Shown here: positions 1 to 62,937 of the stretch, in pieces
Layout of the letters: each line of letters begins with the position of its first letter
Numbering within the stretch: position 1 is the first letter of the stretch
Origin: Paratrimastix pyriformis
Taxonomy: Eukaryota; Preaxostyla; Paratrimastigidae
Direction of reading: 5' to 3'
DNA length: 64,000 nucleotides
Assembly: GCA_027972325.1 (NCBI GenBank)
Contig: JAPMOS010000011.1
Location: 741,112 to 805,111 of the forward strand
Made by a program: the position numbers and the translations under genes
Notes under the pieces: generated by a model
What the model saw: the letters and a program-made list of their open reading frames with translations, nothing else
What the model was told of the DNA's origin: nothing
The model's database searches: none

Positions 1-3000
1 CGTCCGCGACTGCAGCACGGCCCTGGTGGTCCCCTGCGACCCGGCCGGGTGCAGCCCCGAGCGCCCCTGGATCCTCGTCCCCGACCGGCAGACCGTCCGC
101 ACCCCATCCTGGCGGGGAGGGAGGGAGGAGGGGGAGGAGGGCATCTTGGGTGGGAGGAGCCTCGCCCCGGCTGTTCCTGGCGGATGTTGACGCGACCCGG
201 CGACCCGTTGTTGCAGGCTGGCCCGGAGGGCGAGGGCCCCTTCACGCTTGTCATCTCGTCGGAGTCCCCCCTCGACGACCTGGTCCTGGAGGCGCGCCCC
301 GATCGGTCCGCCCAGGGCTCGGCAGGGGCACGGGCACGGGGGCAGGGGTAGGCAGGGGCTCGGGGCCACTGGAAGGGAAGGATCGTCTCACAGCAGCTTG
401 TCTGCCCCCCAGGGCGGCTTCCCTGGAGGCCACCGGGTCGTGGGGAGGCTGGGAGCTGTGCGGCAGCGCGCCCTCGCTGACCAACCCCCAGTTCGCCCTC
501 ACCCTCGGCCGCCCCCTCGAGCACGCAGCTGTCTGCCCCGCCCCCCTCGATCCTCACCCCCGCCCAGCCAGGCCCCGAGCCAGCCCGGATCCCGTCAAAC
601 CATCGCCACCACGGTGTGGCCCGGGGCTGGGGGGGGCCAGGTGACGCTGGAGCGGCTGGATGCCCCCGCGGGTTCCGCCCCGGGGCTTGTCTTCGGCCTG
701 TACGAGCTGCCCGCCCTGCAGCCCCTGCGCCGGCTGGTCTGCCCGGCGGCCCCCGTCGACCGGGCTGCCCTGGCGGCCGCCGAGCGGGGCGAGGAGGAGC
801 GCGCCCAGCTGGCTCACAAGGCCCGCGACGGGGTCAGGCCCCAGGAGCCGCCCCAACGCCGGCCGGGCAGCCCAGTCACGGCCAACGCGGCCTCCGACCG
901 CCCCGCCGCCTCGGCCGCCCACACCATCGGGACCGGGGATGGCGGTGAGGGTGACGATGCCGAAGAGGCCCAGGCGCCCCCCCGCCTGCTGCTGACCAGC
1001 CCCTACTGGACCCGCAACCAGGTCCGCCCGCCGCCCCAGCCACGCCTGCCCCCCGTCCAGCCGGCCGCCTGCCCCGCACCGCGCCGCACCGCCCATGCCC
1101 CGCCCCGCCCATGCCCCGCCCCGCCCATGCCCCGCTCCGCCCCTGTCACGAACGGTTCCTTGGGCGGTGGGGCGGCGGTGGGTCTGTGTAGATCACCGTG
1201 AGCGATGTCAGCCTGCCCGCGGGCCGGTACGTGCTTGTGGGTGGGCAGCAGTTCCCCACCCCGGGCCGGCTGCGGTTCGCGGTCCAGAGCCCCGTCCCGG
1301 GGGGCCTCGAGGGGGCCGCCCTGGCCCTCCTGCCCTGCCACGCCACCGTCCTGGTCCGGCAGCGGAGCCCGCCGCCTCGCTCCTCGGCCCCTCGCCTCTT
1401 CCCTTCTCGTGCCCACTCCGATGGCCGCTGTTCGTGGCGGGCTGCATCTGCCTGGCCGGGGGGGTGTGGCTGCAGGACGGCTGCTGGCGGGGTTTCGAGG
1501 CAGCCGGGTTCCGGTCGCCGGCCAACCCGCAGGTGGAGCTGCGCTGCACGGCCTGGAAGCCCGGGGCGGCCCTGCCCCGGGTGCAGCTCATCCTCAGCAG
1601 GCCCGCGCTCCCCGAGGCCCGCGACCCCGCCGCCCCAGCAGCGCCCAGCAAGCAGGACCCCGCCCAGGGCTCGCCGTCGCCGCCCTCACCATCGCCCTCG
1701 CCCGCGCCCTCTGGGTGCCCCCTGGACGGGATGGCCCTCCTCGCATACCGGTCCGGCCCTCGGCTCGCCCCTTCCCCTCCCGCTGCCCTCCCTCCCCCGC
1801 TGTCATTTTTTTTTTTTTTTGACTATTCCTTCACAGTCTTGAGAAAGTTTTCGATTTTTTCAGAAACGACCAAAATTGTAGAAATCAAAGCAAACACATC
1901 TGTGAAGACAGTTTATTTTTGATTTTTTGAAGGGCAGGTGAGTCGGCATGACATTATCGAGTACCGACTTTTCAGAGCGCCCTTTTTCGCACGGGAGGTT
2001 TAACCAAGCATAGGGCAACACTTTTGGTGGGTCAGATTCACTGGCAAGTGAGTTTTTGGAGGGTGACCACTCGCCAGTGCGATCGAATTCCCTGGTGTGG
2101 CCTCGAGGGTGCGGATTCCTTTTGGGTGTTGCCCATCCTGAAGGTTATGTGTAATTTGGAACTATGGTCAAGTTGGATTAGGCGTTTATTTTTGACCGAG
2201 TTGTGGTGGGTTCGAATCCTGTCGGCGCTTGTCTTTTTCTCTCCGTTCATGACGAAATCTCAAGATCGGCTCACAGAATCGGCGCGAAACTTCCTTCCCC
2301 CCAAGACTTATTGACCTGCGAGTGGGCATCGACTCTTTCAGACCCAACTCACGAACTCATCGTCAGAGGTGCGTGGATGATATCGAATTTTTGTTGGCAG
2401 AGGACAATATGACCATACACTGTGCTATCAATTGGAGGTGTGCTACCAATTGATCCCACGCTAACTTCAGCCAACTCAACAGGATCATTTCTGAGATGAC
2501 GTCGACCCAATGTCACCCTTCAAAAAGTGATCGAAGATGCTCAAAAAATGGTGGGATTGATCTGTGGGTGAAAGAAACTTGACTTCCCTTGCTTCTGCTT
2601 TTCCGCGACCTTTTTCTGTGTGGTGGATGGCGTTCCGCCGCCTGAAAAACCACCACAAAAAAAACAGCCAACCAAAACCAGGTTCGAGCCTCTCCGGAAA
2701 TTTTAAAAATCTCTGGCATTTCCAGTGCCCCTGCTTCCTTTTTTCGCGATGGTCCCTTGGAGTTCTCTGTGAACGGCGTGCTACGATTGGAATCACTTGG
2801 TACGTTGACGAGGTCTGCCATCCCACTCAATTCAATCTCTTAACCTTTCCGCACTCCTCCTCTTCAGTCTTAGCGCATTTGGAGGCGCCATTCAGCTTAA
2901 TGCGATTTATTTCCGCAATGCGGCCCAACGGATGCTCAGCCATCACCATCGCTCTTACATCATCTACGATCACCTGCGGCCAGCAGTGCCTCAATGTTGC

Positions 3001-3202: not shown

Positions 3203-3235
<33 letters not shown>

Positions 3236-4562: not shown

Positions 4563-4593
<31 letters not shown>

Positions 4594-7500
4594 GCCATGG
4601 AGGTAGAGTCCATGGCAACGGTACAGTGGCATATACACCGCTCACCCCCGCTGTCATCCCTCCCCCGCTGCCACCCTCCCGCTGCCATCCCTCCCCCGCT
4701 GCCACCCTCCCGCTGCCATCCCTCCCCCGCTGTCATCCCTCCCCCGCTGTCATCCCTCCGCTCCGTCCCGTCGGCCGTTAGCCACATCCTTTGGTCTGCC
4801 GGCGGTGTCGATGCCTGTGCAGGGGGCTGCCGGGCCGCTGGGGGCGGCGCCGTGTGCGGCTGGACGCGGCCACGCTGGCGGCCCAGTCGGAGTTCAGCCG
4901 CGCCCGGGCCCTGGAGCTGGCCCTGGCCCTGGCCGCCCCGACCGAGGACCACGAGGCCACCCGGGGCGGGCTGCTCGACCCGACCGGCCTGCCCTGGATC
5001 CTCGTCCCCTGCCGCGAGAAGGTCCCCGCCACGCGCTGCCCCGTGAACCCCTCCCCCCCCCCCCCCCCCCCCCCCTGGCTGCCTCTCCGCGCATCCATTG
5101 ACGCGGCCCCTGGTTGGGGGCTGGGGTGCGGTCGGTGCCCCGTGCGGGGCGGCGGTGGTGCAGGTGGGGCCCGAGGGCGAGGGCCCCTTCCGGCTGACCG
5201 TCCTGGCGGACAGCCCCGACATCGCGGCCACCCTCCTCGCCCCGGCCACCCCGCCCGCACCGCCCGAGCAGCCCCACAGGGAGCGTTTCCTGTCTGCCCC
5301 GCCGGCCACCCACCCGCAAGGGGACAAGGAGACACCCCACCCAGGGAGCGGGTCGGCTCACGCGCATGGCTGCGTGTCTGGGGCCCGGGGCCCGGGGCCG
5401 GGGCCCGGGGCCTGGGGCCTGGGGGCAGAGAGGTTCTTGCTCGGCACGGGGCCGCCCCGGGCAGCGTGGTGGACGAGGTGGGCCGGGCCGAGCGGGGCCG
5501 CTTCTACCTCCGCAGCTGCCCCACGGCCGACCTGCTGGGGCTGGGGGCGCCCTTCGTCGACCCGGACTTCCCGCCCTGTCCGGCCTCCATCACAGGGCCC
5601 AGCCCCAGGACGGTCCGCCCCACCACCAGGCTGCCCCCCCCCCCCCCCCCCCCCGTCCCGTCCCGCCCCGTCCCGTCCCACGCCCGGCCCCGGCTGCCCC
5701 TGACCGGGCCGTCGGGTGGTCGGTGGTGGTTGGTATGGTTGGCCTGGGCGTGTGGTTGGCCTGGGCGTGTGGTTGGCCTGGGCGTGTGGTTGGCCTGGGC
5801 GTGTGGTTGGCCTGGGCGTGTGGTTGGCCTGGGCGTGTGGTTGGCCTGGGCGTGTGGTTGGCCTGGGCGTGTGGTTTGTGGTTGGTGCGGTGGTGCCGCG
5901 CAGCCACGAACACGCTGACGGCGGCCGAGGTGCTGGGTGCGGTGCACCACTGGGCGCGCCTGCCCGACTTCTGCGAGGCCCCGCGACTCTTCGTGGGGGC
6001 GTCGAGCCGGGCGACGTGCGGCAGGGCCTGATGCCCGACTGCTGGCTCATGTCGGCCATCGCCAGCTGCTCGACCCGGCCCGACCTGGTGCAGGCCATCT
6101 TCGGCCAGTGCGCCGTCAATCCGCAGGGCGTCTACAGCCTGCGCCTCTTCGCCAACCAGATGCCCTACTACGTCGTCGTGGTCCGCCCTCCCCTCCTCGG
6201 CCTCTCCTGTCACCCCGGCTCGGCTCCTTGCTCCCCCTCGCTTTTCACTCCCTTCACGCTTTATCCCGGCGGGCGGGCGGGCGGGCGGGCGGGCGGGCGG
6301 GCGGGCGGGCGGGCGGGCGGGCGGGCGGGCGGGCGGGCGGGCGGGCGGGCGGGCGGGCGGGCGGGCGGGCGGGCGGGCGGGCGGACGGACGGGCGGGCGG
6401 GCAGGACGACTACATTCCGGTGGGGCCCAACAACGCGCCCTGCTTCGCCCACAGCCTGGACGGGGACGAGGCCTGGGTTGTGCTGCTGGAGAAGGCCATG
6501 GCCAAGCTGCACGGCGGCTACTATGCCCTGACGGGCAGCGGGGCCCACAGCATGGGCACCTCGGCCGCCCTGCGCATGATGACCGGCGGCGTGGCGGCCG
6601 TCTTCCAGCACGCAGACCCCGAGCAGGTCCGCCCACCACCCGCCCACAGCCCGCCCACAGCCCGCCCACAGCCCGCCCACAGCCCGCCCACAGCCCGCCC
6701 ACAGCCCGCCCACAGCCCGCCCACAGCCCGCCCACAGCCCGCCCACAGCCCGCCCACAGCCCGCCCACAGCCCGCCCACAGCCCGCCCACGACCCGCCAC
6801 GCCTCTTGGCCGGCCATCGCGGTTGCGGGCGAGTGTGTGACCCTGTCCCGGCACCTCCTTGGGGGGGCGCGGGCGGGGGGGACGTGGCGGCAGGTTTGGT
6901 GGCGGCCCTGAGCGCGGGCCACGTGGCGGGCGCCACCTCGGTCGATGACCCGGCCATCAAGGAACTCGTCCGCCCATGCCCTTGCCCAGGCCCAGGCATC
7001 ATCACCATCATCACCATCACCATCACCATCACCATCACCATCACCATCACCATCACCACCATCACCATGACAGGTGGGTCATCATCAGTTGCATCCCGCC
7101 CACTCCCTCCCTCCCTTCCCTCCCTCCCTCCCTTCCCTCCCTCCCTTCCTTCATTCCTTCCCTCCCTCCCTCCCGGGACGGTCGGCCGCGCAGGGCTTGG
7201 TGCCGCTGCACGCGTACTCGCTCATCGGCTACCAGGTCATCGGGCTGCCTGAAGGCGGGTCGGCCCGGCTCTTCAGGGTGCGCAACACCTGGGGCCGCCA
7301 CGAGTGGACCGGCCCCTGGTGGTCCGCCCGCTGCCCCCCATCGCTCGCCTGCCCGCCCTCCGGCCCGCCTGTCTGTGCCCGCCTCAGGCGCCCCGGCCCC
7401 CCTTCACCCCCGGCAGCGACGGGGCCCCCGAGTGGACGCCCGAGGCGCTGGGCCAGCTCAGCCAGCAGGCCGCCAACCAGGACGACGGCTGCTTCTTCAT

Positions 7501-8669
7501 CGCCCTGCACGACTACGTCCGCCCCCACCCTCGCCCGCTGCCCTCGCCCGCTGCCCTCGCCCGCTGCCCTCGCCCGCTGCCCTTGCCCGCTGCCCTTCGC
7601 CCGCTGCCCCCTTTCCTCGCCCGCTGCCCTTCGCCCGCTGCCCCCTTTCCTCGCCCGCTGCCCTCGCCCCGCCCGTCTGCCCGTCTGCCCGCTTCTGCCA
7701 CCACCCGCGACCCTCACCCAACATGGGCAGCTGGGCGTGGGCGACCCTCACCCAACATGGGCGGCTGGGCGTGGTGGTGGGCAGTGCCGCTGCTTCATGG
7801 ACACGTACACCTGCCGTCTGCCCGGCCCCGCCGATGCGGCCCAGCGCTTCGAGGTCCGCCCCCCAGTTGCCCTTCCCCGCCCCGCTGGGCGGCCAGTGGG
7901 GTTGGTGGGCCGGTCCGGCCGCATCGGAACCTCATGAATCCCACCCGCATGGAACCCCATGAACGCATGGAACCCCATGAACGCATGGAACCCCATGAAC
8001 GCATGGAACCTCATGAATCCCACCCGCGGGCCGGCCTCTTGGGCCCCGCGCCAGCCGGTCCTATCCGGGCCACCCCCGCCCCCCCCCCCCACCCCGCCCC
8101 GCCCCCCCCCGCCCCCCCCCCGCCCCCCCCCCCCCCCCCGCCCCGCCCCGCCCCGCCCCCCGTCCCATCGCCCCCCTCGGTCGTCCTCATCGCTCACCCT
8201 CTGGCCCTCTGCCCGCTCAGGGGGCCGATCGGGGCGGCCCCGTGACGGTGGAGCTGACCGTGGGCTACGAGGACTTCCTCCGCCACCGGCGCGGGATGGT
8301 GCTCTTCCTGTTCGCCCTCCCCCAGGGCGCCCCGTCCGCCTCCTGCGCCTCGTTCGAGTCCGTCGCCCTCCCTCCCCGCCTACTCCCTTCCTGTGGTCTC
8401 CGCCCAGCCGGCTCATCCCGCCACACGCACGACGGTGTGGCAGCGAGCTGCGGGAGGTGGCCCGGAGCGAGTACAGCTGCGCCCGGCGGGTGGGGCTGAC
8501 CTTCGAGGGGCCCGCCGGGCCGGCGGACTACCTGCTGGCCGCCTGCCTGGAGGACCCCCAAGCGGGCAGGCCCCAGGCGCCCCCCGGCGGCCTCGGCCAG
8601 GACCTGCCCTTCCGGGTGGCCGTCGTGGCGCAGGCCCCGGGCTCGCTGGCGGCCCTGCCGCGCCCTTAG
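1..8669 (+). CDS. calpain-type cysteine protease with N-terminal C2L-like domains (5' partial)
   Basis: This encodes a calcium-type cytosolic cysteine protease split by about 15 introns. The upstream exons (to 5612) repeat calpain beta-sandwich (C2L/domain III) signatures: WILVP at 69-83, LTNPQF near 480-497, SPANPQVEL near 1515-1540, then WILVPC and VGPEGEGPF at 4994-5190. The protease core follows: FVDPDFPP near 5555, a QG-x-x-PDCW block with catalytic Cys codon at 6040-6042, LLEKAMAKLHG near 6490, catalytic His in LHAYS (codon 7209-7211) and Asn in RNTWG (codon 7284-7286). C2L-like sequence runs to the TAG at 8667-8669. All three catalytic residues are present. Phase-consistent donors lie at 95, 306, 1022, 1354, 1751, 6181, 6968, 7322, 7517, 7854 and 8334, each starting GTCCG. 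A frame break precedes the Cys near 5992-5998, and the introns at 5613 and 6627 do not keep phase in my model. C2L repeats before the protease core differ from the human calpain order. Bases 1-1750 could be a separate gene, but phase fits across 1751-4822. Confidence 0.82.
2158..2229 (+). pseudogene. tRNA-like sequence (A and B boxes)
   Basis: An A-box match (TGGTCAAGTTGG, 2165-2176) and a perfect B-box (GGTTCGAATCC, 2209-2219) lie 44 bases apart, the spacing inside a real tRNA. The D stem can pair through GTC/GGC. The acceptor and anticodon stems do not pair, so this looks like a degraded tRNA or a tRNA-derived retroposon head rather than a working gene. Confidence 0.35.
2827..3180 (-). other. 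unidentified reading frame inside the insertion
   Basis: The minus strand carries a non-repetitive open stretch ending at 2827, with segments such as DDVRAMVMAEHPLGRIAEI and, in a neighbouring frame, QYFTLSTEVKACLAKIRTSQ. Composition is protein-like and unlike the low-complexity tract to its right (3190-3620). I do not recognise a family and see no reliable start. It may be the tail of a small gene carried by the insertion or captured host sequence. Confidence 0.25.
3189..3620. repeat. compound simple-repeat block (CT, CCCCTG, CCCGCC, ACGACCCCAC)
   Basis: Successive tandem tracts: CT dinucleotides from 3206, CCCCTG hexamers from about 3290 to 3400, CCCGCCCC-type units, CACCACGCTC near 3510-3545, and a 10-bp ACGACCCCAC unit at 3570-3612. 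These make long spurious frames on both strands. Confidence 0.85.
4371..4443 (+). pseudogene. second tRNA-like sequence
   Basis: An A-box-like TAGTCCAGCTGG (4378-4389) and a B-box GGTTCAATTCC (4422-4432) are again exactly 44 bases apart. A six-pair stem flanks CTATACGT in the anticodon position (8-base loop), and GGGG/CCCC closes the T loop. The acceptor stem does not form. Read as a tRNA relic or tRNA-derived element; the spacing shared with 2158-2229 argues against pure chance. Confidence 0.35.
5743..5876 (+). repeat. 18-bp minisatellite in calpain intron 5613-5903
   Basis: About seven near-perfect copies of an 18-mer (TTGGCCTGGGCGTGTGG-type) fill the middle of the intron. Confidence 0.9.
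6268..6403 (+). repeat. (GGGC)n array in calpain intron 6181-6404
   Basis: Roughly 30 GGGC tetramers reach almost to the CAG acceptor at 6402-6404. The intron begins GTCCGCCC. Confidence 0.9.
6641..6795 (+). repeat. 11-bp minisatellite CCCGCCCACAG in calpain intron 6627-6893
   Basis: About 13 copies of CCCGCCCACAG. Every unit ends in CACAG and so could serve as a cryptic 3' splice site. Confidence 0.9.
6998..7178 (+). repeat. (CATCAC)n then (CCCT/CCTT)n in calpain intron 6968-7193
   Basis: A CATCAC hexamer tract (about 6998-7068) is followed by a CCCTCCCTT pyrimidine tract to about 7175, just before the CAG at 7191-7193. Confidence 0.9.
7526..7672 (+). repeat. CTGCCCTCGCCCG minisatellite in calpain intron 7517-7784
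   Basis: About ten imperfect 12- to 14-bp units based on CTGCCCTCGCCCG directly follow the GTCCGCCC donor. Confidence 0.85.
7934..8160 (+). repeat. 18-bp minisatellite and C-rich tract in calpain intron 7854-8220
   Basis: Four units of ATGAACGCATGGAACCCC (about 7934-8020) precede a C-rich tract (about 8068-8160). Exon sequence resumes at 8221. Confidence 0.85.
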
Positions 8670-8763
8670 GTGGGGAAGCCGAGGGCAGGGGCCAGCGCCC
8701 ACCGCCCAAAGAAGCCAACCCGGCTGCCCTCCGCAGCGAACAGAGTCAGATGATCAAACACGA

Positions 8764-15775: not shown

Positions 15776-18460
15776 TCATCGGCCCCTTTGGGCGAGATCG
15801 TCTTCCTCCTCCTCTTCGACAGCGACCGCACCTCTGCGACCAGACGTGGTTGGGTGGGCAGCGGTCGGAGCACCTTGGGCCGGCTGGGTGGCCAAAGGCA
15901 TCGCGGCAGCGTCCTCCTCCTCCTCTTCTTCTTCCTCCTCCTCGCTTTCGTCCCCCCCTTCCAGATTGCCTGTTGGTGGCTCGGGCTCGGGGTCCTGTCC
16001 ACCACAGTCGATCGGGAACACCAAAACAGATGAAGCGACATGGGTTAAAACGACCCGCCCCTCGCGGGGAGGCTGTTGCAACAGAGGCAAAGGAGGAGGC
16101 ACAGGAGCAGAAGACCGACCTCGGGGGGCGGGGGACCCACCTCGGCCGCGAGGCGGTCCAGGACAGGCTTGTGGTGTTCGAACTCGGGGTCGGGCTCCTG
16201 CTCGTAGATCAGCTGGGCCTTGCGGGCAAACTGCGCAGCCGGCCCCAGCCGGCCCAGCCGCTGGTTGACCAGGCCCAGAAGAAGAAGCACCTCTGCGGGC
16301 AACCACCAAGGGAGGGGACGATGAACCCACCAGACAGTGCGCACAGGAAGACCACCGCGAGAAGTGAAGGCACAGTCCACGAGGGAAGCGCCAGAATCAA
16401 GCAGTGCCCACCCATGTCTGGCACAGGCAGACAGGCACAGGCAGGCAGACAGGCACAGGCAGACAGGCACAGGCAGACAGGCACAGGCAGGCAGACAGGC
16501 ACAGGCAGACAGGCGCAGGCAGACAGGCGCAGGCAGACAGGCGCAGGCAGACAGGCGCAGGCAGACAGGCGCAGGCAGACAGGCGCAGGCAGACAGACCG
16601 AAGTCCTCGTCTTGGTAGTGGTAGAGGAAGTTGAGGACCCGCTCGGCCGTGGGGAACTCCTCCAGCTCCACCAGGAGGCGGCCGCTCTTGAGCAGCACAT
16701 CCAGGGGCGGAAGCGACTCCTCGTCCACTGAGGAGAGTGGGCACCCAGGAAGGGTGAGACCGGGAGCAGAGGTGAGGCGGGGAGGGGGGGAGGGAGGGTG
16801 GGGAGCGGCTTGGCACGCGGAGGGGTACGGACGCTGCTCGGGGTCGAAGTCACTCTCGGGGATCAGGGGCAGCCACTGGCCGACCGACTGCATCAGGGCC
16901 GCGTGTGCCTCCTCGCGCCGCCCCTGACCGATTCGAAGATGGGCCAGCGCCTACACGGTCCGAAAGGGCGCCATGTGAGCGGAAAAGGCGGGGAACCAGG
17001 GCAAGCGGACAAAGAGCACCTCGGGGGCCTGCGGGTTGATCTCGGCCGCCTTTTGCAGGGTGGCCTCGCAGTTGGCGATCGAGTCGGGCTGCTCGCTGCC
17101 CACAGAGAACCGCCCACAGAGAACCGCCCACAGAGAACCGCCCACAGAGAACCGCCCACAGAGAACCGCCCACAGAGAACCGCCCACAGAGAACCGCCCA
17201 CAGAGAACCGCCCACAGAGAACCGCCCACAGAGAACCGCCCACAGAGAACCGCCCACAGAGAACCGCCCACAGAGAACCACGCAAATCGACCCGCAAAAT
17301 CGGTCAACCTCTGGACAGCGGAGACTGGCTGGCGGGGTGCGTGCGGAAGTGGCGCGGGAAGTGGCGCGGGAAGTGGCGCGGGAAGTGGCCGCGGGAAGTG
17401 GCGCGGGAAGTGGCGCGGGAAGTGGCGCGGGAAGTGGCGCGGGAAGTGGCGCGGGAAGTGGCGCGGGAAGTGGTGCGGGAAGTGGCGCGGGGCGCGGGTG
17501 CGGGGCGCGGGTGCGGACCCCAGATCGGTCATGTAAACTTCGGCCCATGAAACGTACGCGCTCACGATGTCTTGGTCGATGGAGGGTAAGTTCCCGATTT
17601 CCTGGGATACCGGAGGTGAATAAGTGATGTGATGCAAGCTTCCACCACCACCCACCACCCACCACCACCCACTCCACGCCACCCACCACCCACTCCACGC
17701 CACCCACTCCACGCCACCCACTCCACGCCACCCACTCCACGCCACCCACTCCACGCCACCCACTCCACGCCACCCACCACCCACTCCACGCCACCCACTC
17801 CACTCCACGCCACCCACTGCACGCCACCCACTGCACGCCACCCACTCCACGCCACCCACCACCCACTACACCACGCCACGCCACCCACCACCCACTACAC
17901 CACGCCACGCTCCCGGGTCCATCCCTACAGACAAGGCCCTGCGCCACGTTCGCACGTTCGGCCATTAGCAACTCGACGCCTTTTGAAAAGTATTGGATGG
18001 CCTCCTGACCCCGGCACATCTGCATTCGACGGGAGTGAGACCGGGGGGGGGGGGCGGAGGCAGACAGTGGCAATGTTGAGGAACTTGCATGGATTATGGC
18101 CTTCATCAAGTTCGATTGAATGCCGAATGTACTGACGTAAAGGATCGCTCGGTGAGATTGGAGGAAGCCGAGCGTGCAGACATTTTTTGCTTGATCGGGA
18201 TCAACTTCACTCAAAATCTCGCCCAGCGTATCCAGTAGCTGCCAACGGAAAGGACCCATCAATACCGTTCATGTAAAATCGGCGGGACAGACATCGACAT
18301 TGTCAGGAGCGATCAGAACAAGACGCTGCAATTCAGGAAGGGCGCTGAGTGGATCTTGGACGGCCATATCGAGGGCCTCCCGAATCTGTGTACCCAAGTT
18401 GCGCACCTTCTTTGTCGTGCTCTTCACCCCACCCTTGGCTCCCTTCTTCTTGGGCGGCAT
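15776..18460 (-). CDS. ACL4: ACL4-like TPR protein (probable assembly chaperone of ribosomal protein uL4)
   Basis: This is read as a tetratricopeptide chaperone. It starts MPPKKKGAKGG at 18460; exon 1 (18293-18460) and exon 2 (18182-18238, LLDTLGEILSEVDPDQAKN) are exact 56- and 19-codon exons joined in phase. TPR-like helices follow: EAIQYFSKGVELLMAER (about 17945-17995), ATLQKAAEINPQAPEVL, an exon around 16850-16965, SGRLLVELEEFPTAERVLNF (about 16630-16690), and LGRLGPAAQFARKAQLIYEQ (about 16200-16250). The C-terminus is a glutamate tract ending at TGA 15776-15778, like the acidic tail of yeast Acl4. Donors read GTCTGTCC, GTCTGCAC, GTCTGTAG, GTCCGCTT, GTCCGTAC, GTCTGTCT and one GTGGGTCC. It diverges from GPN1 across 37 bp. 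The Acl4 assignment rests on architecture; another TPR protein is possible. Confidence 0.6.
16428..16592 (+). repeat. AGACAGGCRCAGGC minisatellite in an ACL4-like intron
   Basis: About 12 copies of a 14-bp AGACAGGCACAGGC / AGACAGGCGCAGGC unit immediately inside the minus-strand GTCTGTCT donor. Confidence 0.9.
17098..17278 (+). repeat. AGAACCGCCCACAG 14-bp minisatellite
   Basis: About 13 near-identical copies of AGAACCGCCCACAG, reaching the minus-strand 3' splice site of the EATLQKAAEIN exon. Confidence 0.9.
17342..17505 (+). repeat. GGAAGTGGCGCG 12-bp minisatellite
   Basis: About 13 copies of GGAAGTGGCGCG in the same intron as the preceding 14-bp array; two unrelated arrays share one intron. 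Confidence 0.9.
17640..17912 (+). repeat. CACGCCACCCACTC 14-bp minisatellite
   Basis: About 17 imperfect copies of CACGCCACCCACTC with CACCACC variants fill the next intron of the ACL4-like gene. Confidence 0.88.
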
Positions 18461-35049: not shown

Positions 35050-37844
35050 TTAGAGGTAGAGGGACGCCGCAAAGACGATGTCCCGCTTGATGTGAGTGAC
35101 AGCCTCCTGGAAGCGAGTCACGAGTTCCTTCGAGCCGATCAGCTGGGCCGCCGCCACGAGCTCCTGCAGCAGCTCGGCAACCCGGCGCAGGCAGCGCACC
35201 ATCGACCCTGCCCCACCCGAAACAGAGCCGGGCGACAACCACCAAACGGAGCCGGCGCGCGGTGAGACAGGGAAACTCCAAACGGAGCGGGCGCTCGGTG
35301 GGACAGGGGGCGCTGGAGGGAACAAACCTTCGTGGATCTTGGCCAACACGCATGCCTCGGCGAACTTGCAGCCCTGCGAAACGACCCCCATCACACCGCG
35401 TGAGATGCGAGGTCGGCCCTGACCCCTCCCCGGAGCGCCCCCAGGCGTGTATGCTCTGACTGCCACCCGAAGAGGGTGAGCACGGACCTTGGCCCACATG
35501 TAGCCCACCTCGGCCATGGCCGGGCTGAAGCTCTTCATGTACTCTTCGGTGTCCTTGGGCAGGCGGCACTCCTGGCAGATCTGCCCAGAAAAGACCGCCC
35601 GCCCAGCGAGCATCGGGACGTGATGAGCACGCGATGTGTGTGCGGTTGTGATGTGTGCAGTGTGCGTGCGTGATGTGCGCGTGGTGTCTACGACATCTCC
35701 AAGGGTCGCCCTGAGTGGGGACGAGCCACGACAGCGCGACAGGAGGAGGACGCAGCCAGTAAGATTTCGTGCGCGTTTTTTCCCCTCTTGCCACTAGATT
35801 ACCCAAGAGGATCACAGATGTGTCGTGTGCGTGTCGTGTGCGTGTCGTGTGTGTGTCGTGTGTGTGTCGTGTGTGTGTCGTGTGTGTGTCGTGTGTGTGT
35901 CGTGTGCGCGTCGTGTGTGTCGTGTGCGTGTCGTGTGGTGCCGGGGGTGATGTCGATGGAGGGCCGAGGGACCTTGGCCACCCGGGCGGCGGTTTCGTGG
36001 AGCTGCCGAATCGGCTCCACAAGCTCGTCGCGCGGAGGGGCGCTTTCCTTGGTCTGTTGGATGCCCAAGGCCGCCCCCAACCAGAGAAAGCCATGGGCGA
36101 GCGCACTCATCGCCCACGGAAAGGAAGCCGGAGGGCGGGGCGTTGGGCATGACATAGAACATAGGCGCAGGCACGGAGCATGGGGCATCGGCATGAGCAT
36201 GAGGAGCATGAACATAGCATGGACATGGGACCGGGACCGGGCGGGACGACAGACGACTTCCTCGAAGACGAGCAGCGTCAGGAGCCCCACGGTCTGCTCG
36301 ACGGTGAGCGACTGCAGCAGGGGCGAGAAGAGCAGCTCCGTGCACACGAGCTCGTCGCCGCTGTTGACCTCGCACGCGACCCGCCCTTTCAGCGAGAGAA
36401 TCTCGCCTTCGTCGATGTAGCCCATACTGACGAGCCAAGAAGCGGAGGGGAGGGAGGGGGGGAGGGGAGGGGAGGGGGGAGGGGGGAGGGGAGGGAGGGG
36501 AGGGGGAGGGGAGGGGAGGGGAGGAGGCGACAACGGGAAGACAAAGCGGTGAGGCAGGGGGCGATGGGGGCGATGGGGGCGATGGGGCGATGGGGGCGAT
36601 GGGGCGATGGGGCGATGGGGGCGATGGGGGCGATGGGGGCGATGGGGGCGATGGGGGCGATGGGGGCGACGGACGGACCGCCTGAGGACCCGCTTCATGG
36701 CGACGAGCTCCTCGCGGAAGACCATCTGCTGGGTGCGCTTGATGACCTGCTCCTGGACCCGCGCCTGGGCCAGCAGGTCCGCCTGCGGCCAGCCGACCCC
36801 ATTTCACCAAACATTGCTCGGGTGCACCCGGGGTGGCCACGAGGGGGATGGAGCCCGGGCAGACCTTGGCTGCGAACTGGGCGAGCCGAGGGGGCATCGT
36901 GGGGGCCAGGTAGGCCGGTTGGGCCGCATATAGCTCCTCCAGCTGGACGATTTTCTGGGCGGGCGGTTCCGACCAGGGCAGGCAACCCGCAAGGAGCAAG
37001 AGCATCAGGAGGAGCATCAGGAGGAGCATCAGGAGGAGCATCAGGAGGAGCATCAGCATGTAAAGCGGGCGGCTGGCCGGGAGACCTTCAGCAGGGCCGG
37101 CAGCGCCGGGTCCGGGATGCGCATATCCTCGACGGGATCCATCAGCGGGGGGCCCTGCGGGTAGGTTTGCATGACCTTGGCCAGCGAGAGCAGCACGCTC
37201 TGGGCGTGTGCTTGCGGGCCGCCCTTGGCCGCGGCTGTGGCGGCCTTGGGGAGGCACAACCGGACGGTGCTCAGGGCCCGGAGCGTATGCAGAGCCACGT
37301 GGATGCACTGTGGCCGGTCCGACGCAGCCAGGGCGTGATCCCAGGCACAGGGGACGACAAACCCGCCCGTCCCAACAACCATCCACAAAAGGGACCCTAT
37401 CAGCTCCACGCAAGCGGGTGGCGATTGGTGGGTGGTTGGCGGTGGGTGGTGGGTGGTGGGTGGTGGGTGGTGGGTGGTGGGTGGTGGGTGGTGGTGGATG
37501 ATTCGGACGACGGGCCTCGATCCTGCCCTCACGGCCCCGTTTCGGAGGGCGCGGCCTCCCCTGGCTCATGGGGTCGACCAGGATGTACACGGGCACCTCG
37601 AACTCCTCCGGCCCCGCTTCGGCCAGGCCGGCAGGCAAGTCCTGGGCGTGCGCGAGGGGCCTCGAGTCCTTCTTCTTGGCGTCCGCTGGGGCCGCAGGGG
37701 CGGGCGGCGGCGGGGGAGGGGCATCATCATCACCATCGTGGTCTTCGTTCTCCCCGAAATCGCCCCGGCGCCTCCGCAGCGTGGCTCCGTCGCCCGGCGT
37801 CAGGGGCGCTTCTTCGCTGCCCTGTGGGGTGGCGGCTGCCGCCT

Positions 37845-37875
<31 letters not shown>

Positions 37876-40800
37876 GGCGGCGGCCGTGGGCGGGAGGCTC
37901 TCGAGGGTTTCCAGGGCAGCCGCAGCAGCCGAGGGGCCGCCGGCCTGTTTGCTGCCGCCGTGCTGGGGCAGAGGCCGCTTCCGGGGGGCGCCTGCGATGC
38001 GGCAGGCAGGCCCGGCAACGACGCCCCAGCCCCAGTCGTCGGCGCGGTCTTGCACGTGCACCAAACGGCCCCGCTGCAGGAAGGGCACCACGTGGGCCGG
38101 CCGGGCGATGAGGCCCAGCAAGGCGGCCCGGAGGCGCTCCAGCTGGGTGCGCACCTGGTAGCAGGTCGCCACCGTTGGCTCGTCTTCGATGGCAATGGCC
38201 GCGGCCTGGGCTTGCAGGTCATCCAGAGCTGCCCGAGGCCCCAACCCCAACCCCAACCCCAACCCCAACCCCAACCCCAACCCCGACCCCGACCCCGACC
38301 CCGACACGAGTGAGCGCCAGCCCCAGAGTGCCCGTCTCCCCGTCTCTGCTCAAGCAATCCCCAACCCAAGCACTCACCCCAGCAATGCCGAGGAGACGGT
38401 CAGCCGCACGCGCACGCAGGTCGTTGGGGGGCCCGAGGGGACGAGAGGCCTCGACGGACCCTTCTGCTGTGCGGGCAAGGCGCGCATGGCCTGGAACTGC
38501 ATGAAGCTGTTGCGGATGATGTGCTCCGGGTCGGCGCCCTCCACCCGGATGGTGTTCAGGGTCATGTTGAAGCTCAGGTGGAAGGTGCTGTTCAGTGGGT
38601 CCGCTTCGCCCTGGCCCATCAAGAGCCCAGGCCCCCAAGAAGCATATAGATGCCGATGGGAGGAGGAGGAGGAGGAGGAGGAGGGAGGGGGGGAGGGGGA
38701 GGCAGGGGCAGCAGGGTCAGCAGGGTCAGCAGGGGCAGCAGGGTCAGCAGGGTCAGCAGGGTCAGCAGGGGCAGGGGGGAATGGGGGCAGCTGAGGGACC
38801 TTGATCATGGCCCGGGCGGCCTGGGGCTCAAGGCGCTCATCGAGCATGGTGATGACAATACCCCGCTTGTCGAGCCCACGGCGCCCTGCACGGCCGCTCA
38901 TCTGGATGTATTCGCCCGAGCTTAGCTGTCCCAGGCCGGGGAGGGGGAGGGGAAGCTAAACAAGGGGGAAGGACCGAGGACCAGCGTCCTCGGGTTCTGG
39001 GCGAGGCTGGGCGAGGCTGGGCGAGGCTGGGCGAGGCTGGGCGAGGCTGGGCGAGGCTGGGCGAGGCTGGGCGAGGCTGGGCGAGGCGGCCAGACGAGGC
39101 GGTGCTGCTGGCCGTCCCACTTCTTGACCGAGGTGAAGACGACCGTCTTGGCGGGCATGTTGAGGCCCATCGAGAAGGTCTCCGTCGCGAAGAGGACCTT
39201 ACCCCGACCCAGAAACCCACCCGAGACGAGGGCGACATCAAAGGCCGCACGGAAGGCGGCAGCGGCCCGACCGAGGGCGGCTCCTGGGCAACCCAAGAAG
39301 ATAGCAGGCGGGGGTCGGGGGCGCGGACCTTGATGAGGCCCTCCTGGAAGAGAATCTCGATGACCTCCTTCAGAATGGGCAACAGGCCCTGCGCGACCCG
39401 CACGCAGAGGTCATCGCGACCCGAAGCAGCGAGACCCAGTGCCAACGTGTGATCGAGGGATGACGACTCAGACCCCCCCCGCCCCCACCCGGGTGGGCAG
39501 GGCAGGGTAGGCGGCGGACGGAGTGGTGGAGACCGATGCCCCTGCGGAGCCAAGGCAGCACCTGGGTCAGCTGGGGCAAGTTGCGGTCGTCGGGGCCCAG
39601 GGGCTCGACCGCGTTGGCGAAGACCATGTCCACCAGGGCCTTCTCGTCGTCCGAGTTGAAGTCCAGCTTGGCCATGGCCGCCGCGTTGTCCTGCACCTCG
39701 CGCTTGCTGAAGCTGAAGATGATCACCGGGTCGTAGTTGCGCGCCATGATCATCTGCACGATCCGGCCCAGGTCGGCCCGCACGTCTGCCCGAGCAGGGG
39801 GTCCCGAGGCGGAAGAAGAGAGGCTGAGCATCGGCTCGCTCTTCGGGAGCCGTCCTCCCGCCAGGGCGGAGGGGGCGCAAAGGGCAGACCGTTTGGCTTC
39901 CGACGCGGCGTGTCCCCCCCGAGGAGCGCGTCCCCCGATGGCGCCAGCGACGAGACGGCCTTGCTGAAGGCCGCTTCCTGGGTGCCGCAGAAGCGCAACC
40001 GGATGGGGCATCAGCCACCGGTCCGTTTGCTGCCTTCCCCATCTTGGGAGGCGAGTGGGGCGGGGCGGGCGGAGCGGGGCGGAGCGGGGCGGGGCGGAGC
40101 GGGGCGGGGCGGAGCGGGGCGGAGCGGGGCGGGGCGGAGTGGGGGGGGGGGGACAGACACGGAAGACGCCGTGCTCGTCGAGGACCAGGTGCAGCTCGCT
40201 CGTCCCGCCCGGGTAGATGTAGTGCTGCAGAGGCGTCGGCCGGAAGTCCGTGTACACCACGTTGCAGGGCTGCCGAGAAGGAGGGGCGGTGGGAGGTGGG
40301 CGGGAGTGAGCCAGAAGCCGCGTCGCCGGGCGGGGCGGACCTGCTTGTGGAGGTGGGCGATCCACTCGGCGAACTCGCGTGCATTGGGGATGGTCGCCGA
40401 GAGGAAGACGAAGTGAGCCTTGTCGGGCAGCATGACGATGGTCTCCTCCCACACCACACCACGATCTGCAGACCCGCCGCATCCAGGGGCCAGAGGACAT
40501 GAGCAGGAGCCACACCCGCGCTGGCCAAGCCAGGGAACACAGCGAGTGGTCACTCGCGGGCATGCGCGAGGAGGATCGCCCGCCCCCGCCCGCCCCCGCC
40601 TCCGCCCCCGCCCCCGCCCCCGCCCCCGCCTCCGCCCCCTCCGCCCCGCCTCCGCCCCCGCCCCCGCACGGAGAAGCACCAGGAGGAGAAGAGAACGTGG
40701 CGGCAGTCTGGTCGACCTGCGTCCCGCATGTAATGGATCTCGTCGAAGATAACCCAGGCGATCTGGCGTGTGACTTCGGAGCCCCGGTAGAGCATGCTCC

Positions 40801-41559
40801 GCAGAATCTACCACGAGGTCGGGTGTGAATACCCCCGATGGCGGTCGCGGGCGCATGCACGGACCTCGGTGGTCATGACCAGGCAGGATGCGTTTGGGTT
40901 CAGAGTCACATCGCCCGTCATCAGCCCCACGTCCCCGAATTGCTCGCTCAGCTCGCGGAACTTCTGGTTGCTCAGGGCCTGCCACCAGAGCCCAAGGTTA
41001 GGTTGGGTGGACGACGGCGAACCGACCTTGATGGGCGAGGTGTAGATCACTCGCTGGTTATCCCGCAGCGCTGTGGCGATCGCGTACCTGTGGCAGAAGC
41101 CGTGGTTCGAAGGGCGCAAGAGGAACGGTGGCACAGACAGGGCCACGACAGTCTTGCCGGCCGAAGTATGTGCCGAGACGAGAACCGATTCTCCTGCAAA
41201 CGTTTTGGAACTGTCTCTGAATGGACCCACAGACCTCGCTTTATGCACTCAATCGAGGCTTGCTGGAAGGGATCGAGCTTGAACGGGTAAGTCTTCGCAG
41301 GTGGCCGGTCATCGGGTGGGGTCGGTGTGCGATATTCAATACCAGCCACTTCCTGAACGCAATTATACGACAAGAGAGGCTCATTTGTGTGCTCTGCCGA
41401 GGAGACAGTGGGCTCTTCGGCGGCCGGTGAAGCTGATGGGGGAGATTGATCGGGTGAATCGCTGTCCTTTTCAGTTTTCGGGGACTCCTTGCCAATTTCT
41501 TCCCGGGGGCGCTTCGTTCCTTCAACAGGACGTGCTGGGCGGCGTTTTTGAGGGGGCAT
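35050..41559 (-). CDS. MTREX: MTR4 exosome-cofactor RNA helicase
   Basis: A nuclear Ski2-like 3'-5' RNA helicase that feeds substrates to the RNA exosome (rRNA processing, surveillance). Read from the minus strand: [14 protein letters not shown] (41559), [23 protein letters not shown] (Walker A, about 41130-41190), [42 protein letters not shown] (DEIH box, about 40730), [63 protein letters not shown] and [15 protein letters not shown] (about 38865-38910). The arch/KOW region ([15 protein letters not shown]) is enlarged by a low-complexity segment with Ala-Thr repeats (37800-38000). The C-terminal domain ends [13 protein letters not shown] 35050-35052, exactly like other Mtr4 proteins. Donors include GTCTGTGC, GTCCGTGC (near 40873), GTCGACCA and GTCCGCCC (near 40340). 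About 18 introns, many array-filled. It diverges from AFG2. Confidence 0.93.
35820..35940 (+). repeat. CGTGTCGTGTGTGTGT array in an MTR4 intron
   Basis: About ten 10-14-bp units of GTGTGTGTCGT-type sequence. Confidence 0.85.
36432..36672 (+). repeat. GGGAGGGGA and GGGGGCGAT arrays in an MTR4 intron
   Basis: A GGGAGGGGAGG tract (36445-36525) and about a dozen GGGGGCGAT 9-mers (36560-36668) that abut the minus-strand donor GTCCGTCC. Confidence 0.88.
36992..37060 (+). repeat. GGAGCATCA array in an MTR4 intron
   Basis: Five to six copies of a 15-bp AGGAGGAGCATCAGG-type unit. Confidence 0.85.
37424..37496 (+). repeat. GGTGGGTGGTG array in an MTR4 intron
   Basis: About seven GTGGGTGGTGG-type units. 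Confidence 0.85.
38234..38302 (+). repeat. CCCCAA / CCCCGA array in an MTR4 intron
   Basis: About eight CCCCAA hexamers followed by four CCCCGA hexamers. Confidence 0.85.
38640..38775 (+). repeat. GGA tract and CAGGGTCAG array in an MTR4 intron
   Basis: A GGAGGA tract (38655-38690) and about eight CAGGGTCAG/CAGGGGCAG 9-mers (38705-38772). Confidence 0.85.
38997..39087 (+). repeat. GGCGAGGCTG 10-bp minisatellite in an MTR4 intron
   Basis: About nine perfect tandem GGCGAGGCTG decamers next to the HRLV exon. Confidence 0.9.
40060..40150 (+). repeat. GGGGCGGAGC decamer array
   Basis: Decamers of GGGGCGGAGC and GGGGCGGGGC followed by a G run, in an MTR4 intron. Confidence 0.85.
40578..40672 (+). 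repeat. CCGCCCCCG array
   Basis: CGCCCCCGCC-type hexamer/decamer tract between the DEIH exon and the GVVWEE exon of MTR4. Confidence 0.85.
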
Positions 41560-56853: not shown

Positions 56854-57598
56854 ATGGGGGAAGTGGTCTTTTTTAGCGAGAACATTCGGACCATTCTTCC
56901 CCAACTGTTTTTTTCCAATACCCAATTCGTCCAGCGTCTGGCTGATCAGAGGTCCGACTGACATCAATCCCGAAATTCATTCACTTCCGGGGGGGGGGGG
57001 GGGGGGGGGGCTGGTTGAAGGTGCCTCCCTCATCTCCTCTTTCCGTCCCGTGGACTGGCCTTGCAATTCGCGGTTGGTCAGGCCGATCTTTCAAATCTCC
57101 CCACCTTCTTCAGTGGATATTCCCACTCGTGTCCGTCTTCGCGGCGTCTTCTTTCTTCTCCGGGCTGATGAACTGGCCTTTCCCGAAGTTCTCTTTTTCA
57201 TCGGCCAGAACATCACCGAAATCATCGATGAGGTCGCCAAAGTGCAAAAAAACGTCCCGAATTCCCGAATTCTGCTCTGCACAACCTTCGCAGAAACCAG
57301 GGAGACACTCGCCAAGCTCCTATCGTCGTATCCCCCGTTGAAAAGAACCACAAAAAGACTGGACACTCAGCCCGTCACGGCAGCGCCGGTTCACCTCTCT
57401 CGCTTGCTGGAGGCCATCCCAACCTTGCGGCAGCATGAGACATTTGAATTGACAGAGACATTTGGGACTCTCGCCACCCTGCTCCAAGCCCGCGAGAATG
57501 ACATTATTAGCCGGACATCACTCTCCAAAAAGCAGGCACGGAACGTGGTGCGCTTCTTCACAGAGGAGGCACAAGAGCCACTTACTGGTTCCCAATGA
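56854..57598 (+). CDS. FAAP24/ERCC4-like protein with C-terminal helix-hairpin-helix
   Basis: Three exons: MGEVVFFSENIRTILPQLFF, ...RLADQR|gtccgact (donor near 56951); a short exon CLPHLLFPSRGLALQFAV; and, after a GTCAGGCC...TTCAG intron, DIPTRVRLRGVFFLLRADEL. The exons join in phase. An alpha/beta segment (FPEVLFFIGQNITEIIDEVA, SRILLCTTFAETRETLAKLL) precedes LSRLLEAIPTLRQHETFELT and SLSKKQARNVVRFFTEE, which has the spacing of the tandem HhH of XPF/ERCC1/FAAP24 proteins. Size (about 225 residues) suits FAAP24. No ERKxxxD nuclease motif is seen, consistent with a non-catalytic member. TGA at 57596-57598 lies inside the last exon of the convergent UMP kinase gene. Family assignment is inference. 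Confidence 0.45.
56989..57011 (+). repeat. poly(G) run in a FAAP24-like intron
   Basis: About 22 consecutive G, in the first intron of the FAAP24-like gene. Confidence 0.9.
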
Positions 57599-58687
57599 TC
57601 GTTCCGTTGAACTCCTGTCCACGAAGGCAGCGCTCCAGGTTCTCAATGTCTTGCCCGTTGATGACGACTCCGGTGATGTTGGATTCCTTGAAAATCTGGT
57701 GGACGGAAAGAACAAAAACACGTCATTAATGATCAAAGCAGCAAGAACAACACAAACAAACAAAAAGGGAGGCCGGCTCCGGTGAGACCCAGAACAGAGT
57801 GGCAATCGGTTTCGGGCTGGACGGATGGGGTTGGGGCTGGGTGTCCGCGTGCCAAAAAGAGGGCGGACGCAAAGTGTCAGGGTGGGGAAAGGGGACAAAC
57901 CCGAGCAGCGATGGGGTCGATCACGAAGCTCGCGCCGGCCCTGTGCTCAGTGCCCACGATCTCGATCAGACGGTCGTGGGAGATCCGTTGGTACTTTTGC
58001 AGGCCAGGGTTCTTCCGTGGGTCTGCGGGGTAGACACCATCCACATTGGTGGCATTGATCATGCGGGGGCATCCGATCGCCCGCGCCAGCTTGGCCGAGA
58101 CTGCATCGGTGGTCTGGCCAGGGAAGGTGCCACCCATAACTGAAGGGGGGAGGGAGAGACCGGCGGGGACGGGAGTGGGCGGAGGGAGCGAACACAGAAC
58201 GGGTAAGGGGAAACAGAATTGACATCCTTTCAAACCCGTAATGAGGCCGGGCCGGACAGCATCGGGGGTGGTGTCCAGAGGAATATCCTGCCGAGCGGCA
58301 GTACCCAGAGCGGACAAGAGGAGCTTTGAGTTCAGGCGAGTGCATATAATGCCAAGCTCGTCGCACTACAAGTAAATGAACTTGTGAAGGCGCAGGAAGA
58401 GGGGCGGGGGGAGACCTCGGCATCGGAGACCTGAGGATTGATCGCGCGGGCTGCGTTGATATAAGTCCGAGCGACAGTGCCTCCACCGATAACAACATGG
58501 CCAACAATTCCGTCGGCTCTCAGACGAAGGAGCATGGCAGCAATTTTCTGGGCAGAAGACGGGGAAGACGGCACTCTTCAAGCTGGTCACATAATAGCAA
58601 TCAGACCTGAACATATTCGACTTGGGGAACAGGAGATGCAACCAGAGAGCCCCCCAGACTCAACACGAAAGAAGGCGCGGCGCTCAT
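57582..58687 (-). CDS. archaeal-type UMP kinase (amino-acid-kinase fold)
   Basis: Predicted to phosphorylate UMP to UDP with ATP. Met at 58687 opens MSAAPSFVLSLGGSLVASPV (exon to 58607, donor GTCTGATT). Next come KIAAMLLRLRADGIVGHVVI, GGGTVARTYINAARAIN, CDELGIICTRLNSKLLLSAL, DIPLDTTPDAVRPGLITGLK, VMGGTFPGQTTDAVSAKLAR, NATNVDGVYPADPRKNPGLQ, LIEIVGTEHRAGASFVIDPI, then NITGVVINGQDIENLERCLR and GTIIGNQ, with TAA at 57582-57584. The glycine loops and PVMGGTxPGxTTDAVxA, TNVDGVYxADPxK and SxVIDPxAA blocks are those of archaeal PyrH rather than bacterial UMPK or eukaryotic CMP/UMP kinase. Introns and GTCTG/GTCTC donors like those of neighbours show it is nuclear and domesticated. Overlaps the FAAP24-like gene tail-to-tail by 17 bp. 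Confidence 0.85.
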
Positions 58688-61700: not shown

Positions 61701-62937
61701 TGATGGCATGTTTGAGGACCCATTGCCCATTTCTCATCGCGGCTCTCGGACCTGTCCTGAGATTCGCTTTTTCGAAGCCTCACTCGGGCCCACCCACCGC
61801 ACCATCCCCACGACACGACAGGGCGGCAACCCTGGCGGCGGCCTCCAGCTGTGCGCCCAGCTGCTGGATGTGCTCGACATTTTCCTTGTGTTCGGGGAGC
61901 ATTTCCTGCCAGAGCCGGCCCTGCTGGATACGCTCTTCTACGAGATCATTCGCGCGGCCGATGCGATCACCACCCTGGTGCGGCTCGGTCCGTCAGCACG
62001 GCATGCCACCCCGGTCCCATTGGTCTCCCGCTCCTTTCACCAAACTGTCTTGGGCTTCTTCTTCTTTCTGTGCAGCCGAGTCTTTTCGTGTGGGAGCGTT
62101 GAGCCGGGCCCTGGTCAACCCGCAGGCCATCATCCAGCACTTCTTGCCCAGAGTCGAGCAATGGCGGCGCGACAAGGGCCGAACGGGGCCCTCGCCTTCC
62201 CAGGTTCGCGCTCTTGCGTCGTCCCGCACAGGGGTTACAACGGACGCTCCCATCTATAGATCGTCGCGATTCTGCACGAGGGGTATAAAACGCTGACGCT
62301 CCGGTTCCACGGGAACTATGAAGGTCGGGGCGGCGAGCTCTACATCGAAAACCCCCGCGAGGTGACATTCTTTCAGCACCTCATCCGGACCCAGGCAGCC
62401 GAGATCCGGACCGCGTTGCAAGGGCACCTTGATGCTCTTGTTGCTCGGGCTGGTCACGCGCTGGCAGCTTCGGCGCCCGGAACAGGATCGCGGCCACCCC
62501 TGGGGAACCCGAGTGTCCCCGCCTCGCCCCTTTCACAATTCTCCCCAACCCCAGCAAGTCAGCCTCCCCCGCCAAGCCCCAGCAGCTCGTCCTTGGATTC
62601 CCCCCGAAGTGCAGCATCAACTTCCGGGTACGGGCTTCCTCCCCTCCATCTGGACTTCTCGTCGAGTTCGGTGTTTCCAGGACCCCCCGCGCGGCCAGGC
62701 AGACGAGAAATGCCACCTGATGTGCCAAGACCAGGACCAGCGCCAGCCTCGAGTGGCACGGAGGCCGCAGACCCTCATCCTCCGGAAGCGGTGCCAACAC
62801 CCGGGGGCACTTCTCTCTCCTCACCCCCTCCCTCGACGCGGCGTTCTTCTGCCGCGTCGATTTCGGGTCCCGCTGGACCACCTCTCCCGAATCCCCTCCC
62901 TGCCAGAACATTTTTTACTGCGCACAACCGAAAATAA
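58788..62937 (+). CDS. ARMH3: ARMH3 (C10orf76) armadillo-like protein
   Basis: The human homolog binds GBF1 and PI4KB at the Golgi. Recognisable blocks, in human order: SSYQRYEIANLYVHHIAHAE and LFQAVAAFCNGTFAAF (about 59970-60100), DLHVALNIFYQFVYTCPPF, VALLRRFLMMLSILLQEDF, FRVACLAKVALLGLLSLCES, LDLYRKGATIIHRLLVQAHR with LDWAALWEALLKTLRFV (about 61110-61245, the counterpart of human VVHKLL...WRELWSALINLLKFL), GEHFLPEPALLDTLFYEIIR, LSRALVNPQAIIQHFLPRVE, and LHEGYKTLTLRFHGNYEG with REVTFFQHLIRTQAAEI. A proline/serine tail absent from animals ends at TAA 62935-62937. The N-terminal exon (MRRLLNFITPAISKAGE, AYYLAFERILSGETGEAFW) is less certain. It ends about 175 bp from the subtelomeric repeats. 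Confidence 0.85.

Follow-up and report, generated by a model that had tools for sequence, protein, structure and literature searches.

The 64,000-nucleotide stretch of Paratrimastix pyriformis DNA considered here (C13:741112-805111, hereafter the window; assembly of 56.06 Mb in 495 contigs) is crowded with introns that begin with an unusual 5' splice site, or donor. In P. pyriformis, the major (U2-type) spliceosome very probably works with a shifted donor code, approximately AG/GU-C-Y-G-Y. This code would be read by a U1 small nuclear RNA (snRNA) that changed together with it, from the usual AUACUUACCU to AUACAGACCU. The evidence comes from donors fixed by protein homology, from a gene finder that trained itself, and from the U1 genes of the whole assembly. 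Throughout, a plus sign gives the intron position counted from the donor, while U1 positions are counted from the 5' end AUAC.

Donors fixed by homology

The homology-anchored set consists of 38 donors, 18 from the PRPF8 gene and 20 from the MTR4 gene. Both genes were mapped with a custom protein-to-DNA aligner, which demanded GT..AG and left the splice sites otherwise unscored. The guide for PRPF8 was a hand-typed human sequence. It placed 18 introns at about 81.8-92.3 kb of contig C456, with 2315 residues aligned and 1801 of them identical to the guide. When the demand for GT was lifted and only the AG acceptor was still demanded, the same 18 donors were returned, all of them GT. The acceptors of these introns end in CAG or TAG in 18/18 cases.

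The MTR4 gene lies in the window itself, at 35.2-41.2 kb on the minus strand, and was aligned with eight homologues. All eight guides agree on 17 introns, and six of the eight on 3 more. Without the GT demand, two guides each gave 19 GT donors among 22 introns. The relatives of this protein are 46-58% identical among the 120 matches listed, and no close relative was found among them; the best by score, from Balamuthia mandrillaris, is 56% identical over 66% of the query. The 20 introns are as follows, with the guides and the gene finder (see next section) that place them.

41194..41234, minus strand: MTR4 intron, GTCTGT; 8/8 guides
41088..41138, minus strand: MTR4 intron, GTCTGT; 8/8 guides
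40979..41026, minus strand: MTR4 intron, GTCGGT; 8/8 guides
40808..40864, minus strand: MTR4 intron, GTCCGT; 8/8 guides and gene finder
40466..40716, minus strand: MTR4 intron, GTCGAC, lacking +5 G; 8/8 guides, gene finder with the same donor and a different acceptor
40270..40340, minus strand: MTR4 intron, GTCCGC; 8/8 guides and gene finder
39978..40158, minus strand: MTR4 intron, GTCTGT; 6/8 guides and gene finder
39786..39889, minus strand: MTR4 intron, GTCTGC; 6/8 guides and gene finder
39389..39519, minus strand: MTR4 intron, GTCCGC; 8/8 guides, gene finder pairs the acceptor with donor 39561
39198..39328, minus strand: MTR4 intron, GTCCGC; 8/8 guides, donor matched by gene finder
38926..39095, minus strand: MTR4 intron, GTCTGG; 8/8 guides, gene finder donor at 38981
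38611..38799, minus strand: MTR4 intron, GTCCCT, lacking +5 G; 8/8 guides and gene finder
38229..38459, minus strand: MTR4 intron, GTCCGT; 8/8 guides and gene finder
36955..37085, minus strand: MTR4 intron, GTCTCC, lacking +5 G; 8/8 guides
36783..36864, minus strand: MTR4 intron, GTCTGC; 8/8 guides and gene finder
36427..36678, minus strand: MTR4 intron, GTCCGT; 8/8 guides and gene finder
36054..36254, minus strand: MTR4 intron, GTCTGT; exact ends in 6/8 guides and gene finder
35581..35972, minus strand: MTR4 intron, GTCCCT, lacking +5 G; 8/8 guides and gene finder
35374..35487, minus strand: MTR4 intron, GTCCGT; 8/8 guides and gene finder
35208..35327, minus strand: MTR4 intron, GTTTGT; 8/8 guides and gene finder

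Left out of this set were donors 37603, 37596, 37532 and 37308 (1 or 2 guides), the single-guide alternatives 40160, 40154 and 36257, a second acceptor for 36254, and donor 38019, which is discussed below.

An earlier note on this DNA had held that GTCCG and GTCTG prevail, and this is the case for 30 of the 38 anchored donors (GTCCG 18, GTCTG 12). GTCGG and GTCCC occur twice each, while GTTCG, GTTTG, GTCGA and GTCTC occur once; the share of GTYYG is 32/38. At +3, C is present in 36 donors and T in two, and the purine of the canonical GTRAGT-like donor of U2-type introns in none of the 38. The same note had described pyrimidines at both +3 and +4 with the +5 G retained. The description is confirmed: +3 is a pyrimidine in 38/38, +4 is mostly one (C 21, T 14, G 3), and +5 is G in 34 (otherwise C 3, A 1). 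Position +6 is T in 22, C in 14 and G in 2, and the exon ends in G at -1 in 29 and has A at -2 in 20. For MTR4 alone, +3 is C in 19/20 and T in 1/20, with +5 G in 16/20.

Donors from a self-trained gene finder

A two-strand gene finder was given coding and intron composition initialised from the PRPF8 alignment, with donor weights flat beyond GT, and then trained itself on 264 kb of sequence pooled across five contigs. From this neutral start it predicted 435 introns, of which 245 begin with GTCCG (163) or GTCTG (82), followed by GTCGG (31) and GTCAG (19). A run that started from a canonical GTRAGT donor matrix converged on the same outcome, with 437 introns, GTCCG 163 and GTCTG 82. GTYYG makes up 266/435 predicted donors, a count that includes gene-finder errors. 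A +3 purine is found in 43 of the 435 and +3 A in 1.

The conventional GTRAGT donor was said to be almost absent, and GTRAG is indeed seen in 0/117 predicted donors of the window and 2/435 of the pooled ones. Similarly, the five donors cited earlier (1022, 6181, 6968, 7517 and 7854) were all recovered by the gene finder trained from bare GT. The 117 window introns include 73 with GTYYG (142/207 in C441, 30/69 in C112, 18/32 in C456) and 92 with +5 G. C at +3 was predicted in 92/117 donors of the window, 180/207 of C441, 49/69 of C112, 25/32 of C456 and 7/10 of C86. As plain words in the window, GGTCYGY is enriched (89 against 57.8 expected; 0/100 shuffles reach this), GTRAGT is without enrichment (17 against 24.5 expected), and GTATGT occurs 6 times against 3.8 expected.

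At the acceptor, training led to CAG preceded by a preferred G at -4 (GCAG, 56%), for example at window positions 7193 and 35208. Such a preference is unusual and may partly be gene-finder error.

The U1 genes

A genome search with RF00003 (E <= 0.001), in which 41 of the 992 first-look candidates were scored, found eight U1 genes of 50.8 to 60.2 bits. All eight start with AUACAGACCUUGCUUGGCC and carry the recognition sequence AUACAGACCU, so that ACAGACC stands in place of ACUUACC in every copy found. The change is confined to positions 5-6 (AG for UU), which lie opposite +4 and +3 of the donor. A compensating U1 end, AC[A/G]GACCUG, had been predicted in the earlier note, and ACAGACCUU is present in 8/8 genes. 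The note had also suggested that U1 might be lengthened so that it could base-pair with a CCC spanning +6 to +8; this was not borne out, the first four bases being the ordinary AUAC.

One copy, L001, aligns with positions 1-166 of the RF00003 model (60.2 bits, E 9.9e-15 in a 351-base search) and with no other Rfam family at E <= 1. Within its first ten bases, the mismatches to the consensus AUACUUACCU are at positions 5 and 6 only. Its predicted fold (minimum free energy -70.9 kcal/mol, z -3.38) is much like the four-stem cloverleaf of U1, the stems having been matched by eye with those of the family alignment. Furthermore, the U1 has the GAUCAC loop of stem-loop I, a candidate binding site for U1-70K, and AAUGUUUGG before stem-loop 4, a candidate site for the Sm proteins.

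A U1 with the standard end had been named as the finding that would speak against a recoded U1. An exact pattern in which the standard end runs on into GATCA of stem-loop I gave 0 matches in the whole genome. As this search was empty and 8/8 U1 genes are altered, that objection does not arise. A second U1 class, ACGGACC, which would suit GTCCG donors, was also sought; a pattern with the two bases free and 2 mismatches allowed returned the same eight genes only. Upstream of the eight U1 genes and the four U6 genes found (L001-L012) stands CCCATAA, mostly as TCCCATAAT. The U6 genes also have a TATA-like TTATAAG or TTATCAG closer to the start than CCCATAA.

Pairing of the donors with U1 and U6

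In the proposed mechanism, C8-A7 of U1 would pair with G1-U2 of the intron, and the changed G6 would pair with C+3. A U at +4 would be paired by the changed A5 and a U at +6 by A3; between them, C4 would pair with G+5. The AG at the exon end would be bound by C9-U10. The donor would then be passed on to an ordinary U6, whose ACAGA could pair with +6 to +2 of GUCUGU at all five positions. From the sequence, we infer that U1 transcription starts at the A of AUAC, the expressed RNA starting AUACAGACC, that this register is used in the cell, that the introns are efficiently removed, and that the change reaches across the transcriptome. The system presumably behaves like ordinary U1 recognition and descends from it.

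Mean duplex energies on the 38 donors were compared for all 16 dinucleotides at U1 positions 5-6. The native AG (-8.1) ranks 2/16, ahead of CG (-7.1), and the standard UU (-3.5) ranks 15/16. The 435 predicted donors likewise place AG second, and UU last. This ranking indicates that G6 is well matched, and that A5 fits only the minority of donors with U at +4. The trained donor matrix has 25% U at +4 and 34% at +6, against 12 to 18% at +7 to +9, an excess such as A5 and A3 would favour.

The first seven bases of U1, AUACAGA, are identical to the AUACAGA stretch of U6. The METTL16 target in U6 also resembles this stretch of U1. By a simple count, U6 ACAGA pairs with GUCUGU at five positions, with GUCCGC at three and with the canonical GUAAGU at three. 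For the 38 anchored donors, the number of such pairs is 5 in 7, 4 in 19, 3 in 11 and 2 in 1. A tentative and rather doubtful extension is that donors first shifted to suit the unchanging ACAGA of U6 and that U1 followed, its AUACAGA coming to equal the U6 stretch that later takes its place on these intron bases. Donors would then be under selection for a single sequence that two RNAs of identical letters read in turn. A C at +4 would either form a tolerated non-standard pair with U1 A5 and with the middle A of the U6 box, or be read by a modified A5 (e.g. inosine). In general, the C majority at +4 may stem from C-ward compositional pressure, from an A-C pair being tolerated or from modification of A5.

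The rest of the spliceosome

The other spliceosomal RNAs carry standard motifs in the copies read. U6 has the standard AUACAGAGAAG in 4/4 copies found, with the ACAGAGA box unaltered; the altered box that had been thought possible was thus not found. U2 retains the standard branch-binding GUAGUA, as GUGUAGUAUC, in the 2 copies read; its 10 matches include a fragment below the cut-off. The U5 loop is the standard CCUUUUAC, read as CGCCUUUUAC (2 copies read of 7 matches). A METTL16-like gene (PF05971, 64.5 bits) shows DFCMCNPPFF in six-frame reading, and a SNRNP27K match (PF08648, 34.7 bits) shows RRYRQYMNRKG.

Points against a recoded U1, and other explanations

Several observations weigh against the proposed reading. 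At MTR4 donor 38019, GTTGCC is used by 8/8 guides and has neither the +4 pyrimidine nor the +5 G. It was excluded because its acceptor is uncertain: conservation is weak in this part of the gene, and the guides end the intron at four different sites. When it is included, MTR4 has a +3 pyrimidine in 21/21 and +5 G in 16/21 donors, and the whole anchored set 39/39 and 34/39. In the small C86 sample, GTYYG makes up 3/10. The gene finder retrieves 12/18 of the PRPF8 and 14/20 of the MTR4 anchored donors, and its list is for that reason error-bearing and the motif blurred.

Further points concern the pairing and the U1 particle. Most +4 positions are C (21/38) and would be unpaired with A5, and a U1 with GG at positions 5-6 (-11.1) would outpair the native AG on these donors. 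The +4 C donors showed no compensating strength elsewhere in five tests (Fisher p 0.15 to 0.89). The best U1 score is below the Rfam gathering cut-off (60.2 vs 69.5), and the free-RNA fold pairs U1 bases 4-8, CAGAC, with GUUUG of the Sm-like region (L001:1501-1656). U1-C was not found: a zf-U1 search gave one match (L027:4809-4943, in C86), and this was rejected as U1-C, being WBP4/FBP21-like in sequence with a WW-like stretch downstream. We take it to belong to the WBP4/FBP21 family. The N-terminal family of U1-70K, PF12220, had no match either, a result that is uninformative as the control genomes likewise have none. Short domains of U1-C and U1-70K can be split by introns and hence escape such a search.

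Among other explanations, composition survives best, though we regard it as very improbable. Here, in a genome rich in GC and in C, little would constrain the donors; GTCCG would reflect composition, and U1 pairing would be unimportant, as in organisms reported to have no U1. The window is 57 to 77% GC in 4-kb blocks, the introns are 44% C, and the C at +4 and +6 can be read in this way. The contrary comparison is with the 3071 non-donor GTs within predicted introns, where +3 is C in 38%, G in 39%, T in 19% and A in 3%, and +5 is G in 31%. Against this background, the anchored donors are far from chance, with a binomial P of about 3e-13 for C at +3 and of about 1e-13 for G at +5. As GTA is rare overall, the absence of A at +3 says little by itself; the strong evidence is that G has been lost from this position and C gained. 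Functionless drift would also hardly give one altered, donor-fitting 5' end in eight U1 genes.

Slightly less probable still is that the working U1 is a standard one that escaped detection, and that the RNAs with AUACAGACCU form a minor U1 family or one of pseudogenes. The scores below the gathering level, the fraction of candidates scored and a possibly incomplete assembly would allow for this. Yet a standard U1 would be expected to score higher with RF00003, not lower, and the exact standard-end pattern was absent. Moreover, UU pairs almost worst with the donors, and the eight copies share both their 5' end and the upstream CCCATAA. That these are minor (U12-type) or other non-U2-type introns, as the deviation from GTRAGT might suggest, is highly implausible, for U12-type donors are RTATCCTT and the anchored ones GTCCG/GTCTG-like, the PRPF8 acceptors are all CAG or TAG, and major-type U1, U2, U5 and U6 are all multi-copy in the genome.

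Other features of the window

A calpain gene lies near the start of the window. After splicing, residues 1-230 of its product align with positions 61-297 of the 297-position Peptidase_C2 profile (PF00648) at 143.4 bits. The introns predicted there are the following.

1022..1191, plus strand: predicted intron upstream of the calpain gene, GTCCGC; gene finder, with no homology anchor
6181..6404, plus strand: calpain intron, GTCCGC; gene finder and Peptidase_C2 match of the spliced product
6627..6632, plus strand: calpain donor GTCCGC, acceptor uncertain; gene finder
6968..7193, plus strand: calpain intron, GTCCGC; gene finder and Peptidase_C2 match
7322..7416, plus strand: calpain intron, GTCCGC; gene finder and Peptidase_C2 match
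7517..7784, plus strand: calpain intron, GTCCGC; gene finder and Peptidase_C2 match
7854..8220, plus strand: calpain intron, GTCCGC; gene finder

On the minus strand, 22286-28057 holds 17 predicted short introns between exons of charged, coiled-coil-like proteins, with GTCYG in 10/17 of the donors. A predicted segment at 57585-58137 (minus strand), TNVDGVYPADPRK, looks prokaryotic and uridylate-kinase-like when judged by eye. Short tandem repeats (e.g. GGGC and GGCTATCTGTCTGTTT) are dense in introns and other stretches, and are packed at 5715-5880, 6240-6390, 17100-17280 and 24150-24550.

Significance and comparison with known systems

The U1 sequence ACUUACC is regarded as near-universal because very many donors constrain it simultaneously. 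The joint change of all U1 copies found and of the donor consensus in intron-rich genes indicates that the code is movable. It also offers a compensatory-mutation experiment carried out by nature across a whole genome, which bears on the sharing of donor recognition between U1 and U6, and on the reason for the two U1 pseudouridines. For gene annotation, donor models trained on GTRAGT are expected to perform badly here. A genome-wide recoded U1 has no earlier report in the literature searched (most subscription papers and all bioRxiv preprints lie outside it).

Compared with the canonical U1/GURAGU system, much is the same: GT-AG introns, the cloverleaf, the Sm-like site, position-by-position pairing with the donor, G at +5, and the standard motifs of U6, U2 and U5. 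The differences are +3 C and a mostly pyrimidine +4 in place of +3 A/G and +4 A, and AG in place of UU at U1 positions 5-6. In human and yeast, U1 positions 5-6 are pseudouridines (PMC3510501, PMC10581693).

In Saccharomycotina, the U1 ACUUACC is described as invariant wherever a U1 candidate exists, in 227/230 species and 9/10 outgroups, while a switch from A to U at +4 accompanies the loss of METTL16 and SNRNP27K (PMC10581693). In both cases the donor preference leaves +4 A. There, U1 is kept, whereas here it is changed, and family matches to METTL16 and SNRNP27K are present. A change of pseudouridine to A at U1 position 5 was named there as a possible compensation (PMC10581693), and A is what this position holds in P. 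pyriformis. For Fritillaria borealis, it is reported that 95% of introns fall outside the GT/AG rule with the U1 5' end strictly preserved; U2AF duplication and m6A changes were put forward as the explanation (PMC13326754). Both genomes deviate from ordinary splice sites throughout, but in P. pyriformis the introns remain GT-AG and it is U1 that is recoded.

A changed U1 5' end is also described in the diplonemid S. specki, where one copy with a C-stretch exists beside the standard U1 (PMC12621601). In contrast, the change here is in 8/8 copies found. Entamoeba histolytica has GTTTGT donors, and thus shares the +3/+4 pyrimidines with +5 G as well as the standard U6 ACAGAGA. The difference is that no recoded U1 is found there, Entamoeba being reported to have no U1 snRNA (PMC13292270). 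Elsewhere, the usual U1 end is reported to persist: the Giardia U1 starts ACUUAC (PMC3510501), the U1s of two nucleomorphs retain the motif even with donors that are motif-free beyond GU (PMC6461891), and that of the ciliate Stentor retains ACUUACCU (PMC9505925). Donors have also been viewed as falling into two classes in their reading by U5 and U6 (PMC11732430).

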